This document shows positions 20,821 through 31,848 of a DNA stretch of 64,000 nucleotides, in pieces. The stretch spans positions 1-64,000 of the forward strand of contig NZ_JAIQDE010000019.1 in NCBI RefSeq assembly GCF_020037015.1, read 5' to 3'. The translations under genes were made by a program, and so were the position numbers. This DNA comes from Corallococcus sp. AS-1-6. GTDB lineage: Bacteria > Myxococcota > Myxococcia > Myxococcales > Myxococcaceae. The notes under the pieces were generated by a model, which was not told the DNA's origin, searched no databases, and worked only from the letters and a program-made list of their open reading frames with translations. Position 1 is the stretch's first letter. Every line of letters starts with the position of its first letter.

Positions 20821-22638
20821 ATGGCGGTCCCGTTCATTTCCGAGGTCAAGCGTACCCACACCTGCGGTCAGCTCACGGCCGCGAACGTTGGCGAAGAAGT
20901 GGTCCTCTTCGGCTGGGTGCACAACCGCCGCGACCACGGCGGCGCGGTGTTCATCGACCTGCGGGACCGCGACGGGCTCACCCAGGTGGTGTTCGAGCCG
21001 GACAGCAAGGAGGCCCATGAGCTGGCCGGGCACCTGCGCCTGGAGTTCTGCATCGGCATCAAGGGCAAGGTGCTGTCGCGCGGCAAGAACGTGAACCCGA
21101 AGATGAAGACGGGTGAAATCGAGGTGAAGGCCTCGGACCTGACCATCTTCAACCGCTCGGAGCCCACGCCGTTCCTCATCGAGGACAACGTGGAGACGTC
21201 CGAGGAGAAGCGCCTGGGCCACCGCTACCTGGACCTGCGCCGGGGCCCTTTGCAGAAGACGCTGATGACGCGCTCGAAGATGAACGCGCTCACGCGCTCG
21301 TACATGGTGGGCAACGGCTTCCTGGAGCTGGAGACGCCCTTCATGGGCAAGTACACGCCGGGCGGCGCGCGCAACTTCCTGGTCCCCAGCCGCCTGAACC
21401 CGGGCAAGTTCTACGCGCTGGCGGAGAGCCCGCAGTTGTACAAGCAGTTGTTCATGGTCGCGGGCTTCGACCGGTACTTCCAGATCGTGAAGTGCTTCCG
21501 CGACGAGGACCTGCGCCTGGACCGGCAGCCGGAGTTCACGCAGATCGACGTGGAGATGAGCTTCGTCACCCAGGACGACATCTTCACCATCATCGAGGGC
21601 CTGCTGAAGAAGCTGTGGGGCGAGGTGCTGGGCATCGACATCCCGACGCCCTTCATGCGCATGGACTTCTACGAGTCCATGGCGAAGTACGGCAACGACA
21701 AGCCGGACCTGCGCTTCGGGCTGGAGCACGTGGTGCTCACGGACGTCATCCGCGAGCACGGCGCCGCGGGCGGCGTGCCCATGATGTGGGACGCGGTGCA
21801 GGACAAGGGCATCGTCAAGGCGATGGTCGTCCCGGCGGAGAAGGCGCTGTCCCGCGCGGAGAGCGACAAGCTGGAGGACTTCGCGAAGCAGGCGGGCGCC
21901 AAGGGCCTGGCGCGCGCGAAGGTGGGCGAGGGCGGTGAGTGGACCCAGTCCCCGCTGTCCAAGACGATCACGCCGGCGCTGCGGCAGGCCATCAACCAGG
22001 CCGTGAACGCGAAGACGGGCGACCTCATCCTGTTCCAGTTCGGGAAGGAGTCGCTGGTGCACACGGTGATGGCGAACCTGCGCGTGCACGTGGCGAAGAA
22101 GCTGGGGCTCATCCCCGAGTACGGCAGCGGCGGCCAGTGGAAGTTCCTCTGGGTGGTGAACCCGCCCCTCTTCGAGTTCGACGAGGAGACGAACACCTGG
22201 GCCGCGGCGCACCACGCCTTCACCCGCCCGCACGACGAGGACGTGCAGTACCTGGGGACCGACCCGGGCCGCGTGAAGTGCCACCGCTACGACGTGGTGC
22301 TCAACGGCTTCGAGATTGGCGGCGGCTCCATCCGCCTGCATGACCCGAAGGTGCAGGGCGAGGTGTTCAAGGCGCTGGGCATCCAGGAGGAGGAGGCGCG
22401 CGTGAAGTTCGGCTTCCTTCTGGACGCGCTCAAGTACGGCGCGCCCCCGCACGGCGGCATCGCGCTGGGCATGGACCGCCTGGTGATGCTGCTGACCGGC
22501 GCGGAGTCCCTGCGCGACGTGATTCCGTTCCCCAAGACGAAGACGGGCACGGACACGATGACGGGCGCCCCCGGCGACGTGGACGAGAAGCAGTTGCGCG
22601 ACCTGCACGTGCGCTCGGTGCCGCTGCCCCAGAAGTAG
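20821..22638 (+). CDS. aspS: Aspartyl-tRNA synthetase, probably the non-discriminating type
   Basis: The 605-residue bacterial-type AspRS has an N-terminal OB-fold anticodon-binding domain (GWVHNRRDHGGAVFIDLRDR), class II motif 1, motif 2 (FRDEDLRLDRQPEFTQ), the bacterial GAD insertion, and motif 3 (GIALGMDRLVMLL). His39 in the anticodon loop region (RRDHGG) matches the residue linked to relaxed recognition of tRNA-Asn in characterised non-discriminating AspRS; discriminating enzymes such as that of E. coli have Leu. This would fit a GatCAB transamidation route to Asn-tRNA, though no gat gene is in the window. Confidence 0.95.
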   Translation: MAVPFISEVKRTHTCGQLTAANVGEEVVLFGWVHNRRDHGGAVFIDLRDRDGLTQVVFEPDSKEAHELAGHLRLEFCIGIKGKVLSRGKNVNPKMKTGEIEVKASDLTIFNRSEPTPFLIEDNVETSEEKRLGHRYLDLRRGPLQKTLMTRSKMNALTRSYMVGNGFLELETPFMGKYTPGGARNFLVPSRLNPGKFYALAESPQLYKQLFMVAGFDRYFQIVKCFRDEDLRLDRQPEFTQIDVEMSFVTQDDIFTIIEGLLKKLWGEVLGIDIPTPFMRMDFYESMAKYGNDKPDLRFGLEHVVLTDVIREHGAAGGVPMMWDAVQDKGIVKAMVVPAEKALSRAESDKLEDFAKQAGAKGLARAKVGEGGEWTQSPLSKTITPALRQAINQAVNAKTGDLILFQFGKESLVHTVMANLRVHVAKKLGLIPEYGSGGQWKFLWVVNPPLFEFDEETNTWAAAHHAFTRPHDEDVQYLGTDPGRVKCHRYDVVLNGFEIGGGSIRLHDPKVQGEVFKALGIQEEEARVKFGFLLDALKYGAPPHGGIALGMDRLVMLLTGAESLRDVIPFPKTKTGTDTMTGAPGDVDEKQLRDLHVRSVPLPQK

Positions 22639-22695: not shown

Positions 22696-22792
22696 AGTGG
22701 CTGGAAGCCGACGGACGGCCCCCCGGCACGGCTGGACATCCCGGTGGCCGTGGCCATTGAGGACCGGTGGCGGGCAGGGGAAAGGGCGCGGG

Positions 22793-24046
22793 ATGCGGGG
22801 ACGGGCTTGGGGGGCGTGGGCGCTGGCGTGGGCCCTGCTATGCGCGGGGCCGGCCTTCGCGGCCGAGACGAAGATGCCCCCGGGCCTCACCGGTGACTGG
22901 AGCGGGGTGCGCGGCCTGCTCTACGAGCTGGGCGTGGCCATCCAGATCCGCTACGTGACGGAGCTCGCCTACAACGCGCGCGGCGGCAAGGGACACGCGC
23001 TGCGGCAGGCGGGCCAGCTCAACGTGGGGCTGGGGCTGGACCTGGAGGAGCTGGCGGGGCTCCAGGGCGGCACCTTCCAGTTCACGTTCACGCACCGCAA
23101 CGGCAACAACCTGAACGCGGACATGGCGCTGGGCAACCTCCAGTTGGTGCAGGAGGTGTACGGGCGCGGCAACGTGGGGCGCCTCACGCAGCTCTGGTGG
23201 GACCAGCTCTTCTGGGACGGGCGGGTGCACCTGAAGCTGGGCCGCGTCACGATGGGCGAGGACTCGGCGGACTTCCCCTGCGACTTCCAGAACCTGTCCT
23301 TCTGCGGCGCGCAGCCCGGCAACATCGTGGGCAACTACTGGTTCAACTGGCCGGTGAGCCAGTGGGGCACCCGGCTGCGCGTGGACCTGGCGAAGGTGGC
23401 CTACGTGCAGGTGGCCGCGTACGAGGTGAACCCCCGCAACCTGGAGGAGGCCTTCTACGTGGGGCGCTTCAACGGGGCGACGGGCGTGCTGCTGCCCCTG
23501 GAGCTGGGCTGGAACCCGAAGTTCCACGGCGACCTGCTGGAGGGGCTCTACAAGGTGGGCGCCTGGTACGACACGTCCAACGCGCCGGACGTGTTGCTGG
23601 AGGGCGTGGAGCGCGAGGGGCGATACGGCCTCTACTTCGTCGCGCGTCAGCAGCTCACGCACGTGGCGGGCTCGGAGAACAAGGCGCAGGGGCTCAACGT
23701 CTTCGTGCGCCTGACGCACGCGGACCGGGACACCTCCGCGGTGGATGGCCAGTACACGCTGGGCCTGGGCTACACGGGCGTCTTCGGCCGGGCGGATGAC
23801 GACGTGGGCTTCGCGCTGGGCGCCACGCACTCCAACGGGCGCTACGTCACCGCGCAGCGGCTGAAGCAGGCGCAGGCCCCGGACACGCCGATACCTCGCA
23901 CGGAGTACCTGGGCGAGCTGTACTACAGCCTCCACGCGACGCCGTGGCTCGTGCTGCGGCCGAACTTCCAATACATCCGCCCCGGCGGTGACGAGGCCGC
24001 GCGCAACATCCTCGTCCTGGGGCTCAAGGGCGCGCTGACGCTGTAG
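22793..24046 (+). CDS. OprB-like carbohydrate-selective porin
   Basis: The 417-residue product starts with a signal peptide (MRGRAWGAWALAWALLCAGP...AFA) and continues in the OprB style: LTGDWSGVRGLLYELGVAI at the mature start, VHLKLGRVTMGEDSADFPC, FNWPVSQWGTRLRVDL, KVGAWYDTSNAPD, and alternating strands to the end. OprB porins pass sugars across the outer membrane. No sugar kinase or transporter is beside it, so the substrate is open. The start is the Met at the signal peptide; upstream Met codons are in a GC-rich leader without function. Confidence 0.82.
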   Translation: MRGRAWGAWALAWALLCAGPAFAAETKMPPGLTGDWSGVRGLLYELGVAIQIRYVTELAYNARGGKGHALRQAGQLNVGLGLDLEELAGLQGGTFQFTFTHRNGNNLNADMALGNLQLVQEVYGRGNVGRLTQLWWDQLFWDGRVHLKLGRVTMGEDSADFPCDFQNLSFCGAQPGNIVGNYWFNWPVSQWGTRLRVDLAKVAYVQVAAYEVNPRNLEEAFYVGRFNGATGVLLPLELGWNPKFHGDLLEGLYKVGAWYDTSNAPDVLLEGVEREGRYGLYFVARQQLTHVAGSENKAQGLNVFVRLTHADRDTSAVDGQYTLGLGYTGVFGRADDDVGFALGATHSNGRYVTAQRLKQAQAPDTPIPRTEYLGELYYSLHATPWLVLRPNFQYIRPGGDEAARNILVLGLKGALTL

Positions 24047-24107: not shown

Positions 24108-25097
24108 ATGGCCCTGTCACCCTCGTGGGATGCGTGGCTGTCGGAGAACCTGCTGCGGGGCGTGCCGGAGGAGGCGCTGACCCGGGCGCTGGTCGCCGGA
24201 GGGGTGGCCCCGGAGGAGGCGCGCGCGGAGGTGGCGTGCGCGCGGCGGCACCCGGCGGTGAAGGCCGGGGGCTCGCGCGGGGCGCTGGGGGCGGAGGTGG
24301 TGTCGCTGCTGGACGTGCGCGCGGCGCTGCATGCGCAGTCCCGCCGGACGGTGGAGCGGCGGCGGGGCGTGTCCGCGGAGGAGTTCCAGGCCCGCTACTA
24401 CCGCGCGCACCGGCCCGTCGTCCTGGAGGACTTCCTGGAGGGCTGGCCGCTGCTGGAGCGCTGGCGGCCGGAGGCCCTGGCGCGGGACTACGGCGACGTG
24501 GAGGTGGAGGTCATGGCGGGCCGTGAAGCCCGCGCGGACCACGACATGTCGCCGGACGCGTGCCGCACGGTGATGAAGCTCGCGGACTTCCTCCACCGGC
24601 TGGAGCACGGCGGGCCCTCCAATGACCTGTACCTCACCGCGCGCAACTTCGCGCTGGAGCGGCCGGAGCTGCGGGGGCTGCTGGACGACCTGCGGCCGGC
24701 CCCGGGCTTCGTGTACCCGAAGCGGCAGCACGGCAGCCTCAAGCTGTGGGTGGGCCCGGCGGGCACGCACACGGCGCTGCACCACGACGTGGACTCGGTG
24801 CTGTTCTGCCAGGTCCACGGGCGCAAGCGCTTCTGGCTGGTGCCGTCCTTCGAGACGCCTCGCGTGTACAACCGCGAGCACGTGTGGAGCCCGGTGGACG
24901 CGGCGGCGCCGGACCTGGAGCGCTTCCCGGACTTCGCCTCCGCGCACGTGCACGAGGTGGTGGTGGGCCCCGGGGAGATGCTCTTCATCCCCGTGGGCTG
25001 GTGGCACCAGGTGCTGGCGCTGGACGTGAGCGTGTCGCTGACGTTCCAGTCGCTGGAGGTGCCGGGCGGGAACGCGCGGTGGCACACCTTCGGTTGA
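24108..25097 (+). CDS. Cupin_8/JmjC-fold Fe(II)/2-oxoglutarate oxygenase, first of three
   Basis: The 329-residue protein has a short helical N-terminal domain (WDAWLSENLLRGVP...GGVAPEEARAEV, about 1-50) shared by its two neighbours, then the cupin_8 domain beginning EEFQARYYRAHRPVVLEDFLEGWP. The iron-binding triad is complete: H225-x-D227 in ALHHDVDS and the distal H300 in PVGWWH. Relatives hydroxylate protein, tRNA or small-molecule substrates with 2-oxoglutarate and oxygen. A TAGAGT box lies 6 bases before the ATG and no Shine-Dalgarno is seen, so the gene may be leaderless. The substrate is unknown. Confidence 0.85.
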   Translation: MALSPSWDAWLSENLLRGVPEEALTRALVAGGVAPEEARAEVACARRHPAVKAGGSRGALGAEVVSLLDVRAALHAQSRRTVERRRGVSAEEFQARYYRAHRPVVLEDFLEGWPLLERWRPEALARDYGDVEVEVMAGREARADHDMSPDACRTVMKLADFLHRLEHGGPSNDLYLTARNFALERPELRGLLDDLRPAPGFVYPKRQHGSLKLWVGPAGTHTALHHDVDSVLFCQVHGRKRFWLVPSFETPRVYNREHVWSPVDAAAPDLERFPDFASAHVHEVVVGPGEMLFIPVGWWHQVLALDVSVSLTFQSLEVPGGNARWHTFG

Positions 25098-25126
25098 GGT
25101 GTGCCCACCGCTTCAATGACTGCTCG

Positions 25127-25297
25127 TCAGCCGTTGAGGTTTTCGTCCTTCGGCGTTTCAGGAAGGGGCGGGGTGGACGGCGGCGGCGTGGGCGGCGGGG
25201 CCGCGGGCGTCCGCTTGCGGCTGGGGTCCTCCTGCGCGGGGTCACACGGGGGATTGGGGTTCGGGACGATTCTGTATGAGTTTTCGGGAGGCGTCAT
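25127..25297 (-). CDS. Possible small proline-rich protein
   Basis: In the 263-base gap between the first two cupin genes, the minus strand has a 56-residue frame rich in Pro, Asn and Glu (MTPPENSYRIVPNPNPPCD, then a Pro/Ser/Thr stretch, ending PKDENLNG). Its composition resembles small low-complexity proteins, but no good ribosome site precedes the ATG. It may be chance; the gap otherwise shows no feature. Confidence 0.3.
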   Translation of the reverse strand: MTPPENSYRIVPNPNPPCDPAQEDPSRKRTPAAPPPTPPPSTPPLPETPKDENLNG

Positions 25298-25360
25298 GGA
25301 GTCCGCTCGGGGTGGATGTGGACGACCCAAAAGGTTCAGCCCGATTCAGGGGGGCGGGCG

Positions 25361-26395
25361 ATGACGTCTTTGCTCCCCCCTGTATGGAAAACGTGGCTCG
25401 CGGAGAACCTTGCGCGTGGGGTGTCCGCCGCGAGCCTCGGGGCCCGTCTGGAGGCGGAGGGAGTCGCGCCTGGGGTTGTCTGGGAAACGATTCGGGCCGC
25501 GGAGGGACATTTGGCGGTGACGCGGGCGCGTGAATTCACGACACGTCTGGGATTGCTTGAATCGTTGCTGGAGACGCGGTCGGCGTCGCGACGACAGGCA
25601 TTGCCCGGTCCACGCGTGGAGCGGCGGTCGCGGCTGGCGCCAGCGGAATTCTTCAATGACTATTACCGGCGCAACCGGCCGGTTGTCATTGAGGGGTTGA
25701 TGGAGGACTGGCCGGCGCGGACGCGGTGGACGCCCGCGTGGATGGCCGAGCGTTTCGGGGACGAGACGGTGGAGGTGATGGCGGGGCGCGACGCCCAGGC
25801 GATGCCGGACCTGCACGCGGACCGCCTGCGCCGGGACGTGCCGCTGCGGGAATTGCTGGCACGGTTCGACGGCGCGCCGGCGAACGACATGTATCTGGTG
25901 GCTCGGAACAGTCTGCTCTTGCGTGACGCGTTCCGGCCGCTCCTGGAGGACCTGCGCGCGCCGGAGGGCTACATCCAGCCGGACCTGCGCGAGCCCGACC
26001 GCGTCCACCTCTGGCTGGGGCCGGCGGGGACGCTGTCCAACCTGCATCACGATCACCTCAACGTCCTGTTCTGTCAGGTGTGGGGACGCAAGCAGGTGTG
26101 GCTGGCGCCGTCGTGGGAGACGCCGTGGATGGCCAACGTGCGCGGCTTCTACAGCGCGGTGGACGTGCTGGCGCCGGACGTGGGGCGCTTCCCGGACTTC
26201 GCGCGGGTGGCGTTGCACACGGTGGAGGTGGGGCCGGGGGACACGCTCTTCCTCCCGGTGGGGTGGTGGCACGCGCTGCGGGCGCTGGAGCCGAGCCTGT
26301 CGGTGACGTTCGTGAGCTTCGAACAGACGCCTGGGATGAACACCTGCTGGCGGGAGGGCTGGCTGGGCGCCACGCCTCCGGAGGAGCACCGATGA
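25361..26395 (+). CDS. Cupin_8/JmjC-fold Fe(II)/2-oxoglutarate oxygenase, second of three
   Basis: The 344-residue paralogue of the preceding gene has the same N-terminal helical domain (WKTWLAENLARGVSAASLGARLEAEGVAP) and cupin_8 core. The iron triad is H229-x-D231 (LHHDHLN) and H304 (PVGWWHALRA). The family-typical NRPVVIEGLMEDWP and GPAGTLSNLHHD are present. Its ATGA overlaps the third paralogue. The start at 25361 is preferred over 25316 because the N-terminus then aligns with the neighbours. Confidence 0.85.
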   Translation: MTSLLPPVWKTWLAENLARGVSAASLGARLEAEGVAPGVVWETIRAAEGHLAVTRAREFTTRLGLLESLLETRSASRRQALPGPRVERRSRLAPAEFFNDYYRRNRPVVIEGLMEDWPARTRWTPAWMAERFGDETVEVMAGRDAQAMPDLHADRLRRDVPLRELLARFDGAPANDMYLVARNSLLLRDAFRPLLEDLRAPEGYIQPDLREPDRVHLWLGPAGTLSNLHHDHLNVLFCQVWGRKQVWLAPSWETPWMANVRGFYSAVDVLAPDVGRFPDFARVALHTVEVGPGDTLFLPVGWWHALRALEPSLSVTFVSFEQTPGMNTCWREGWLGATPPEEHR

Positions 26396-27273
26396 GCGGT
26401 TCGAGCGAAGTCTCTCCGCTGACCCCCGAGTGGCGGCGGTGGCTGGTGGAGAACCTGGTGCGCGGCACGGCGCCCAAGGAGCTGGTGGCGTCGCTGGAGA
26501 AGGCCGGGGTGCCCGCGGAGCAGGCGCGGCGGGCGGTGGAGGTGGAGCAGCAGGAGCCCTTCGTCGCGGGCGCGCTGCGGGCGGTGGGCATGCAGCGGAA
26601 GCTGGAGGGGCTGCTGGACGTGTACGCGGAGCTGTTCCAGCAGACGGAGGGGCCGCCGCGCGTGGACCGGCATGACGCGCTGACGCCCGCCGCGTTCTTC
26701 GAGCGCTACTACTTCGACAACCTGCCCGTGGTGCTGCGGGCGGAGTGGAGCGCGTCGTTGGAGCCGGAGGCCTGGCGCCCCGGGAGCGTGGCCGCGCTGC
26801 TGGGCGAGCGCGAGGCGCGGCACGCGTGCTGCGTGCCCCTGTTCGAGGACTCGCGGCTGGCCCCCCTGGCCCGGGGGCTGACGCCGCTTCGGGGCTTCAC
26901 GGCGGAGGAGGCCCGCGCGTGCGAGCCCCGCCTGTGGTGGGAGCCGCCCGGCGCGGAGGTCCCCCTGCGCGCGGCGCGGCGCAACGTGCTGCTGGCGCAG
27001 GTGCACGGGGAGCGGCGGCTCCAGCTCGTCCCGGCCTTCGAGCTGCGGCGGGTGGCCCTGGCGTCGCCAGAGCCTGACGACGCGCCCCTGCGCCTGGACG
27101 TGACGCTGTCGCCGGGGGAGTGGCTGCTGCTGCCGGTGGGCTGGTGGTACGGCTTCAGCGCTCCCGGGGGCGGCGTCGCCGTGTCGTTCGAGGCCTTCGC
27201 GCTGCCGGAGCCGAACGTGACGTGGGACGCCGACGCGGAGCCACGGCCTTCGCCGCTGCCTCCTCGCGACTGA
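26392..27273 (+). CDS. Degenerate cupin_8/JmjC-fold paralogue (pseudo-oxygenase)
   Basis: This 293-residue third member overlaps the second by ATGA. It keeps the shared N-terminal domain (WRRWLVENLVRGTAPKELVASLEKAGVPAEQ), the FFERYYFDNLPVVL segment and the PVGWW strand. All three iron ligands are replaced: the HxD positions are R193 and A195 (LRAARRN), and the distal His is Y253 (PVGWWYGF). The frame is intact and GC-typical, so it is probably expressed but not an oxygenase; a regulatory or scaffolding partner of the two active neighbours is an inference. Confidence 0.82.
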   Translation: MSGSSEVSPLTPEWRRWLVENLVRGTAPKELVASLEKAGVPAEQARRAVEVEQQEPFVAGALRAVGMQRKLEGLLDVYAELFQQTEGPPRVDRHDALTPAAFFERYYFDNLPVVLRAEWSASLEPEAWRPGSVAALLGEREARHACCVPLFEDSRLAPLARGLTPLRGFTAEEARACEPRLWWEPPGAEVPLRAARRNVLLAQVHGERRLQLVPAFELRRVALASPEPDDAPLRLDVTLSPGEWLLLPVGWWYGFSAPGGGVAVSFEAFALPEPNVTWDADAEPRPSPLPPRD

Positions 27274-30183: not shown

Positions 30184-31848
30184 CTACTCCACCTTCTGGG
30201 GGGCGCGCGTGGACTCCACCAGCCGGTGGATGGGGTACAGCTCGCCCACCTTCAGGCTGTCATCCAGGAACTGCCAGCGGCAGAAGCCGTCGTCCGAGTG
30301 CGGCTCCAGCAGGTAGGTGATGAGCGTGCCTGTGCGCTGGTCGGTGCCCACCAGCAGGGTGCCGGCCGGGAAGTCCTGCTCGGAGCGCTCGGGGGCCACG
30401 GTGAGGATGGTCTCGAAGCGCACCGGCTTGGGCTTCTGGCTCAAGGGGACTTCGTCCTGGCCGGGGGGCGGCACGTTGGCGGCGACGTCCGGGCTGAAGG
30501 TCTCCTCCTTGCGGGCGATGCGGTAGCTGTCCACCTGGAAGCGCTGCGCCTTGGCCAGCTTCTCGTAGCGGATGCCGTGGCCGTCCAGGCGCGCGGCGAG
30601 CGACGCGGGCACCAGGTAGCCGGCCGGCGTGCTCACGGCCTGCGTGGGCACGAAGGTGCGGTGGTGCGGCGTCTTGTAGACCTTCTTGCGCTTGCCCGGG
30701 TAGCGGCGCTCCTGGATGCTCGCCTCGTCGAAGGAGAGGATGGCGGCGGTGTCGCCCTCCTTCACGTAGGCCGGGTAGTCGAACACCAGCGCCCCGTCCG
30801 TGGCGCGCTGCGCGACGCCGTAGTTGATGCCCACCCACTCGCGCACGTCCGGGGTCTTTCCGCGCGCGATGATGGCGGCCTCCTCGAAGTCGGTGACCCG
30901 GCGGTACTCCTTGGCGTAGCGGGCGGCGTCGCGGATGAGCTCCAGCACCCACGCGCGGATGACGGCGCAGCGGCGGGGGAAGTCGATGTAGCTGTACGTC
31001 TCCAGCAGCACGTCCAGCCGGCCCAGGAGGCCGCGGTAGTGGCTGCCGAAGCGGGGCAGGGCGGGGTAGGTGTGCCAGCCGGAGCGCGGGTCGCCCTCCT
31101 TGCGGAAGTTGCCGTACCAGAAGCTGTCGAAGCCGTGCTTCGTCTTCACCGCGGCGGACACGCGCTCGGCCAGCTCGCGGTTGTAGTCGCGCGAGGTGTG
31201 CAGCAGCTCCGCGTTGCCGTGGGGGATGTCGAAGGTGAGGTCGAACCCGTGGATGCTGCCGTCCGTGGTGTGGCAGTCCACGAAGAGGTGCGGCCACCAC
31301 GTCTGGTACAGCTTCGCCAGGGCGCGCGTCTCCGGCGCCTCCTGCTTCATGTTGTCGCGGTTGAGGTTCCAGCCCTCGCCCGTGTAGCGCATGCCCACGC
31401 CGCCGGGCGGGTTCACCTGGCCCTCCAGGTTCTTCAGGTCCAGCGCGCGGTTGCCCTTGCTGATGCGGTCGTTGCCGTCCGGGTTGAAGTTGGGGACGAA
31501 GACGATGCACAGCCGGTCCAGCAGCTTCTTGCCCAGGGACGTGAGCGTGAGGTCGCGCGCGAGCGCCTGGAGGGTCTCCTTGCCCTCCACCTCACCGGCG
31601 TGGATGTTGGCCTCCACCATCACGATGAGCTTCTTCTGCTTCTTCGCCAGCTCCGGCGTGAAGCAGTTGCGGTCGCTCAGGATGAGCGACATGAGCGGCT
31701 GGCCTTCACCACTCTGGCCGAAGTCCACGCGCTTCGCGAGCTTGGTCTGGGCACACAGGGCGTCGACGAAGGCGACCACGTCGGCGCTGCGGGACGTTTC
31801 CTGATAGTCGGTGGCTTCCGCGCGGGTGAGCAGCTTGGGAGTGGGCAT
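30184..31848 (-). CDS. M14-family zinc carboxypeptidase
   Basis: The 554-residue protein carries the M14 catalytic domain: zinc ligands H83 and E86 (NIHAGEVEG), H193 (DCHTTDG), and the catalytic Glu E283 (LLETYSY). The NPDGNDR and GWNLNRD segments are family-like. No signal peptide is seen, so it probably acts in the cytoplasm on peptides. The long C-terminal part (about 390-554) is not a recognised domain. A TTGACG-N17-TCGGAT promoter candidate (31860-31888) lies just upstream on the minus strand. Confidence 0.83.
   Translation of the reverse strand: MPTPKLLTRAEATDYQETSRSADVVAFVDALCAQTKLAKRVDFGQSGEGQPLMSLILSDRNCFTPELAKKQKKLIVMVEANIHAGEVEGKETLQALARDLTLTSLGKKLLDRLCIVFVPNFNPDGNDRISKGNRALDLKNLEGQVNPPGGVGMRYTGEGWNLNRDNMKQEAPETRALAKLYQTWWPHLFVDCHTTDGSIHGFDLTFDIPHGNAELLHTSRDYNRELAERVSAAVKTKHGFDSFWYGNFRKEGDPRSGWHTYPALPRFGSHYRGLLGRLDVLLETYSYIDFPRRCAVIRAWVLELIRDAARYAKEYRRVTDFEEAAIIARGKTPDVREWVGINYGVAQRATDGALVFDYPAYVKEGDTAAILSFDEASIQERRYPGKRKKVYKTPHHRTFVPTQAVSTPAGYLVPASLAARLDGHGIRYEKLAKAQRFQVDSYRIARKEETFSPDVAANVPPPGQDEVPLSQKPKPVRFETILTVAPERSEQDFPAGTLLVGTDQRTGTLITYLLEPHSDDGFCRWQFLDDSLKVGELYPIHRLVESTRAPQKVE

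Follow-up and report, generated by a model that had tools for sequence, protein, structure and literature searches.

Three tandem JmjC/Cupin_8 genes in Corallococcus sp. AS-1-6, the third a probable pseudo-oxygenase, and their TPR-CHAT neighbour

The array and its active sites

The sequence considered here, referred to as the window, is a stretch of 64,000 nucleotides from Corallococcus sp. AS-1-6 (contig NZ_JAIQDE010000019.1, positions 1 to 64,000), a genome of the Corallococcus type. It contains an array of three tandem paralogous genes of the JmjC/Cupin_8 type, called P1, P2 and P3, all on the plus strand. The first two keep the HxD...H triad of iron ligands. In the third, the triad is lost in a reading frame that is intact, and P3 is very probably a pseudo-enzyme that has been maintained by selection.

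P1 (24108..25097) encodes 329 amino acids, with the triad H225/D227/H300 and the 2-oxoglutarate (2OG) lysine K240. The codons for H225-H226-D227 lie at 24780..24788 and that for H300 at 25005..25007. P2 (25361..26395; 344 amino acids), for which an in-frame ATG at 25316 is a possible alternative start, carries the triad H229/D231/H304. Its stop codon shares four bases, ATGA (26392..26395), with the start codon of P3 (26392..27273; 293 amino acids), a degenerate JmjC-fold protein in which HxD is replaced by R193-A194-A195 (26968..26976) and the third ligand histidine by Y253 (27148..27150). P2 is 47% and P3 36% identical to P1. The three proteins also have in common a helical N-terminal domain with the motif W..WL.ENL.RG, which covers residues 1-80 of P1 (24108..24347) and residues 1-88 of P3 (26392..26655). 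The initial annotation, made from the window alone, had described three tandem paralogues with a common N-terminal domain, two triads and an overlapping third frame with R193/A195/Y253; the coordinates and the motif hold, and the triads and their substitutes were verified at the DNA level.

In Pfam searches, P1 and P2 match Cupin_8 with 162.2 and 135.5 bits, both above the curated cut-off of 27.4, and P3 falls below it with 24.3 bits. An NCBIfam search found no family for P1 to P3. In the predicted models, P3 keeps the JmjC fold although the ligands are lost. The mean predicted local distance difference test (pLDDT) score is 79.8 for P3 and 76.7 for P1, and JMJD5 ranks first among solved structures for both models. 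In VIA-align, the P3 model is superposed on JMJD5 with a Z of 17.7 over 178 residues (root-mean-square deviation 3.2), and Foldseek gives an E of 4.3e-11 for P3 against solved structures. For P1, the Z is 23.1 over 229 residues (root-mean-square deviation 2.6), with a core identity of 30-32%. A common fold does not mean a common substrate.

JMJD5 (KDM8) and the other small JmjC hydroxylases, such as JMJD7, TYW5, JMJD6 and FIH, are like P1 in the triad and the 2OG lysine, and the JMJD5 fold is that of both the P1 core and the P3 model. By contrast, the N-terminal domain of the array is different, and P3 is missing about 45 core residues in addition to its ligands and 2OG lysine. The N-terminal domain found no match in the Protein Data Bank (PDB) under an E of 0.09, and within the window's own genome it gave good E-values only in P1 to P3 and in P4, a stand-alone intact paralogue discussed below. 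Judging from their sequences, P1 and P2 are probably Fe(II)/2OG-dependent hydroxylases of the JmjC/Cupin_8 type.

Distribution, constraint and history of P3

The distribution of the array was surveyed in 195 genomes of the phylum by a joint profile search, after which the loci were read individually. P1, P2 and P3 were found together in 41 genomes, in one of which (G007) P1 is on a different contig from P2 and P3; P2 and P3 only, with P1 not found, occur in one more (G120). By genus, these 42 genomes comprise 16 in g1, 18 in g41, two in g18, three in g16 (G116, G120 and G121) and one each in g15, g12 and g8, but many are closely related and they are not 42 independent cases. The three-gene order, for which a search in other myxobacteria had been suggested, thus spans seven genera of the family. 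A single genome scan of named relatives gave ten loci, eight in Corallococcus species and the others in a Myxococcaceae metagenome-assembled genome and in Myxococcus sp. RHSTA-1-4, and P3 matches occurred in 19 of the 59 relatives. The locus L066 of RHSTA-1-4 and G139 represent one contig, which was counted once in the final counts. About ten small g41 genomes have no array and carry only P4.

An open P3 frame is present in all 42 genomes that bear P2, and among the matches listed P2 is found without P3 only in a broken second copy in G125. The frameshift or absence of P3 in relatives, which the initial annotation had named as evidence that would count against it, was therefore seen in none of the 42. 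In G032, a stop codon lies inside the extended P3 match, and the called frame has 291 amino acids. P3 lengths vary between 246 and 312 amino acids through deletions. The broken P2-P3 block of G125 (contig C93, L130, 2156-5268) coexists there with an intact array. In G029, G113 and G121 (L053, L118 and L115), which belong to three genera, the arrays are near-identical, and this suggests that the P1-P3 block might have been transferred horizontally among these genera as a unit.

The His-Asp-His triad is kept by P1 in 41/41 and by P2 in 42/42 of the array genomes, and so is the 2OG lysine. In P3, the lysine is kept in 0/42 and the triad is lacking in 41 of the 42, the exception being G106; its homologues thus do not mostly retain the triad, a further point that had been raised for checking. 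The first HxD position of P3 is occupied by R, A, T, G, Q, L, S or H, and the second by A, S, V, L, G or D. The third ligand position holds Tyr in 26 proteins, Phe in 10, His in three, Cys in two and Leu in one. The frequency of tyrosine could indicate that P3 is still catalytic through a different centre, for instance with Tyr substituting for the third His alongside other ligands, or through a metal-free activity, and Tyr is reportedly a third ligand in PHF2. Nevertheless, neither the two HxD residues nor the 2OG lysine is retained, these sites vary freely among P3 proteins, and the third position also holds four other residues, so that such an activity is very improbable.

The ratio of nonsynonymous to synonymous substitution rates (dN/dS) gives no sign of relaxed selection on P3 either. 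Its median over pairs of 16 Corallococcus genomes (NG86, 120 pairs) is 0.346 for P1, 0.232 for P2 and 0.337 for P3, values that are rough because third-position G+C is about 0.9 and that are best used relative to each other. The value for P3 is far below 1 and similar to that for P1. If P3 were decaying toward loss, and its open frame were a by-product of high G+C, its faster evolution (between-genus core identity of 0.475 versus about 0.71 for P1 and P2), its deletions and the broken copy in G125 would be accounted for. This candidate explanation was rejected on the dN/dS values and the 42/42 open frames; it is also at odds with the columns that are invariant across genera and with the lack of P2 without P3 among the matches listed, and is hardly credible.

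Constraint also appears to be distributed differently within P3. In a between-genus comparison of ten genomes from several genera, the identities of N-terminal domain and core are 0.477 versus 0.702 in P1 and 0.420 versus 0.719 in P2 (differences of -0.225 and -0.300). In P3, these identities are 0.572 versus 0.475, a difference of +0.098 (bootstrap 0.017 to 0.177). Measured in this way, conservation is shifted from the catalytic core in P1 and P2 to the common N-terminal domain in P3. Some residues are constant in P3 only, namely a Glu at alignment column 45 (42/42) and, adjacent to where the Asp was lost, an Arg at column 228 (38/42).

In a tree of 57 rows, P1, P2, P3 and P4 each form one clade with a bootstrap of 100. 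The P3 of G106, which bears the triad, branches as the sister of the remaining 29 P3 rows, with support of 100 and 97 on the two sides. A quicker tree of 105 rows gives the same three clades and the same placement of G106. With the one intact P3 placed as sister to the degenerate P3 proteins, a single loss of the triad, following the divergence from the G106 lineage, is probable; this history assumes a root outside P3, as the 57-row tree fixes none among the four clades. The overlap with P2 follows the same pattern. Examined in sets of 24 and 18, 41 of the 42 genomes have a P3 start codon that shares four bases with the end of P2, so that each of the 41 degenerate P3 genes can begin within the stop codon of P2. 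In G106, by contrast, the first P3 start is found 43 bases further on. As G106 is the exception for both features, the loss of the triad and the gain of the overlap would fall, sampling permitting, on the same branch.

The TPR-CHAT neighbour and the paralogue P4

Downstream of the array, and convergent with P3, lies P0004 (27286..30066, minus strand), which is separated from P3 by 12 bases. It encodes a TPR-CHAT (caspase-like) protein of 926 amino acids with a predicted N-terminal membrane anchor, matches the Pfam families CHAT and TPR_12 over their cut-offs, and keeps HAHG at 795 and Cys843, which are present in 20/20 aligned CHAT proteins. An M14 zinc carboxypeptidase gene (30184-31848) is just upstream of P0004 on the same strand. 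On the other side, the array is preceded by genes for an OprB-type carbohydrate porin (22697-24046) and a class II (D/K/N) tRNA synthetase (20821-22638).

A TPR-CHAT gene adjoins the array in 38 of 42 genomes, although the other flanks vary between genera. It is directly convergent with P3 in 18 (16 in g1 and two in g18), and convergent with a further gene, c2, intervening in 19 (18 in g41, and G120); in G106 it runs in the same direction as the array. For G007 (L043) the CHAT gene comes from a separate search, and for G151 it lies beyond the retrieved stretch and was taken from a genome search. The c2 gene (L103 2634-3887 and equivalents), which separates P3 from CHAT in Myxococcus-like genomes (those of g41, and G120) and lies downstream of the CHAT gene in G106, encodes about 420 amino acids with a conserved-looking GGGMCGGW motif, and had no match in Pfam or the PDB. 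At an E of 0.01, PADLOC assigned no defence family to P1-P3, P0004 or c2.

For the stand-alone P4, a separate TPR-CHAT gene lies alongside in 45 of 50 cases examined. The two are convergent in 40/40 genomes that have both among the matches listed, with match ends a median of 35 bases apart, and five more pairs that were read directly bring this to 45/45 in g1, g41 and g18. In G113, a P4-type gene (L118, 7232-8203) is directly upstream of P1, so that four genes of the oxygenase family stand in tandem. In all seven P4 loci examined, an extracytoplasmic function (ECF) sigma factor and a zf-HC2 anti-sigma factor with TPRs are encoded upstream of P4 on the opposite strand; one such locus, complete with the convergent TPR-CHAT gene, is G000:C82:119751-124500 (L055). 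Such a sigma/anti-sigma pair accompanies the array only in G106 among 41 array loci searched. The TPR-CHAT neighbour, the pairing of the intact P4 with CHAT and the presence of ECF sigma/anti-sigma genes at P4 and in G106 all go beyond the initial annotation.

The two kinds of neighbour may themselves be related. A CHAT-domain protein of 991 amino acids (PDB 8rot/8rw5) matches P0004 over residues 24-925 and also matches the P4-side anti-sigma over residues 2-435. Because one protein matches both, the P0004-type TPR-CHAT protein and the anti-sigma look like split halves of one architecture. No publication on the 991-residue protein was found in the open-access literature. P0004 carries a hydrophobic N-terminal segment and has relatives in which a zf-HC2 domain precedes it; P0004 itself has no zf-HC2 match in Pfam.

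The meaning of this neighbourhood can be read in different ways. The pairing of oxygenase and TPR-CHAT genes might be leftover synteny of a single duplicated ancestral locus, with no functional link, as both loci could derive from one module and the genes are separated at 9 of 92 loci (four arrays and five P4-type genes). Against this, the pairing persists at two paralogous loci in several genera while other flanks change, and leftover synteny is somewhat the less probable account. A functional link between the array and CHAT is, from gene neighbourhood, a tentative proposal of appreciable weight.

It is also conceivable that P3 is a pseudo-enzyme with a separate job, for example one in which its old pocket binds the TPR-CHAT protein, the anti-sigma or another ligand, and that it is not a subunit of P1/P2. 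P3 is the array gene closest to the CHAT gene, its newly conserved Arg (column 228) and an invariant Asn (column 230) flank the lost HxD, and the CHAT-paired P4 groups with P3 in the quick tree (support 89), a grouping for which the more careful tree supplies no root. By contrast, it is P2 that P3 accompanies in 42/42 genomes, four of them with no CHAT neighbour, and it is to P2, not CHAT, that P3 is translationally coupled. A separate job is thus unlikely. That P3 is a non-catalytic partner or subunit of P1/P2 is, on balance, probable; contact between them is suggested by the P2/P3 overlap and by the common conserved N-terminal domain.

Known systems and a possible role

Pseudo-enzymes with the JmjC or double-stranded β-helix (DSBH) fold are reportedly found in eukaryotes, where JARID2, Epe1 and the C-terminal domain of OGFOD1/Tpa1 are said to lack the iron ligands and to have non-catalytic roles. 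P3 differs from these in that it belongs to a bacterial tandem array, where the translation of the dead copy is coupled to that of an active paralogue. The initial annotation had likened the genes to an enzyme/pseudoenzyme complex. Two probably active oxygenases with a conserved pseudo-enzyme are borne out, and the complex is a suggestion that rests on sequence.

The genes around P4 and in G106 resemble another known system. In Craspase (PMC10028731), the TPR-CHAT protease Csx29 cleaves Csx30, an inhibitor of the ECF sigma factor CASP-sigma; the genes for a TPR-CHAT protein, an ECF sigma factor and the inhibitor of the latter go together there, as at P4 and in G106. The present genes differ in that the partner is a JmjC oxygenase or an array of them, that a zf-HC2-TM-TPR protein serves as the putative anti-sigma, and that the window has no sigma or anti-sigma match; its TPR-CHAT protein is a putative protease. 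The P4-side anti-sigma also weakly matches DdvA (32.5 bits), of the myxobacterial ECF sigma/anti-sigma pair DdvS/DdvA, and JmjC partners are unmentioned in the accessible portion of its description (PMC4374960). In the open-access literature searched, neither a prior description of the array nor any JmjC or cupin oxygenase with CHAT was found. Thus, the parts (JmjC oxygenases, pseudo-enzymes, TPR-CHAT proteins and ECF sigma pairs) are known and their combination, not found in that literature, is apparently new.

These observations fit a history in which P3 would formerly have been a third oxygenase. Its iron ligands and its 2OG lysine would have disappeared a single time, when the G106 lineage had already split off, and selection would since have kept it as a non-catalytic partner. 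Translational coupling through the four-base overlap would make P2 and P3 together, and P3 would probably bind P1/P2 through the helical N-terminal domain common to all three, acting as a scaffold or as an allosteric or substrate-docking subunit. The array and the membrane-anchored TPR-CHAT protein would form one gene module and probably act in a common signalling pathway. In its ancestral form, seen in P4 and G106, the module would also hold the ECF sigma factor and zf-HC2 anti-sigma. A more speculative and rather improbable extension is that a cytoplasmic complex of JmjC oxygenases and pseudo-oxygenase exerts oxygen-, iron- or 2OG-dependent control over the TPR-CHAT/ECF sigma module, the CHAT-proximal hydroxylase of the array having been turned into a dead regulatory subunit.

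Several points weigh against this interpretation. No TPR-CHAT gene lies within roughly 13-15 kb of the arrays in G029, G113, G116 and G121, and none is close to the five P4-type genes of g8 and g12, one of which is on a contig ending about 1.7 kb downstream. A tblastn search of the 64-kb window gave no sigma/anti-sigma match. The TPR-CHAT part may be periplasmic, beyond the reach of cytoplasmic oxygenases, because of the hydrophobic N-terminal segment of P0004 and the relatives with a preceding zf-HC2 domain. Within Corallococcus, dN/dS in P3 is 0.42 for the N-terminal domain and hence not below the 0.31 of the core, while dN is lower in the N-terminal domain (0.113) than in the core (0.147). 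Finally, the coincidence of triad loss and overlap on one branch is one event, not many.

If the proposed control of the module is real, bacteria would have their own counterpart of signalling under hydroxylase control. The array would also offer a case in bacteria where the loss of an active site of the JmjC type can be located in a phylogeny, since an intact sister survives in G106, and where this loss coincides with coupling to an active paralogue, after which constraint moves to the common interaction domain. It may thus be a good system for asking how enzymes turn into regulatory subunits, and the recurrent TPR-CHAT/ECF sigma neighbourhood offers bacterial JmjC hydroxylases a testable pathway.

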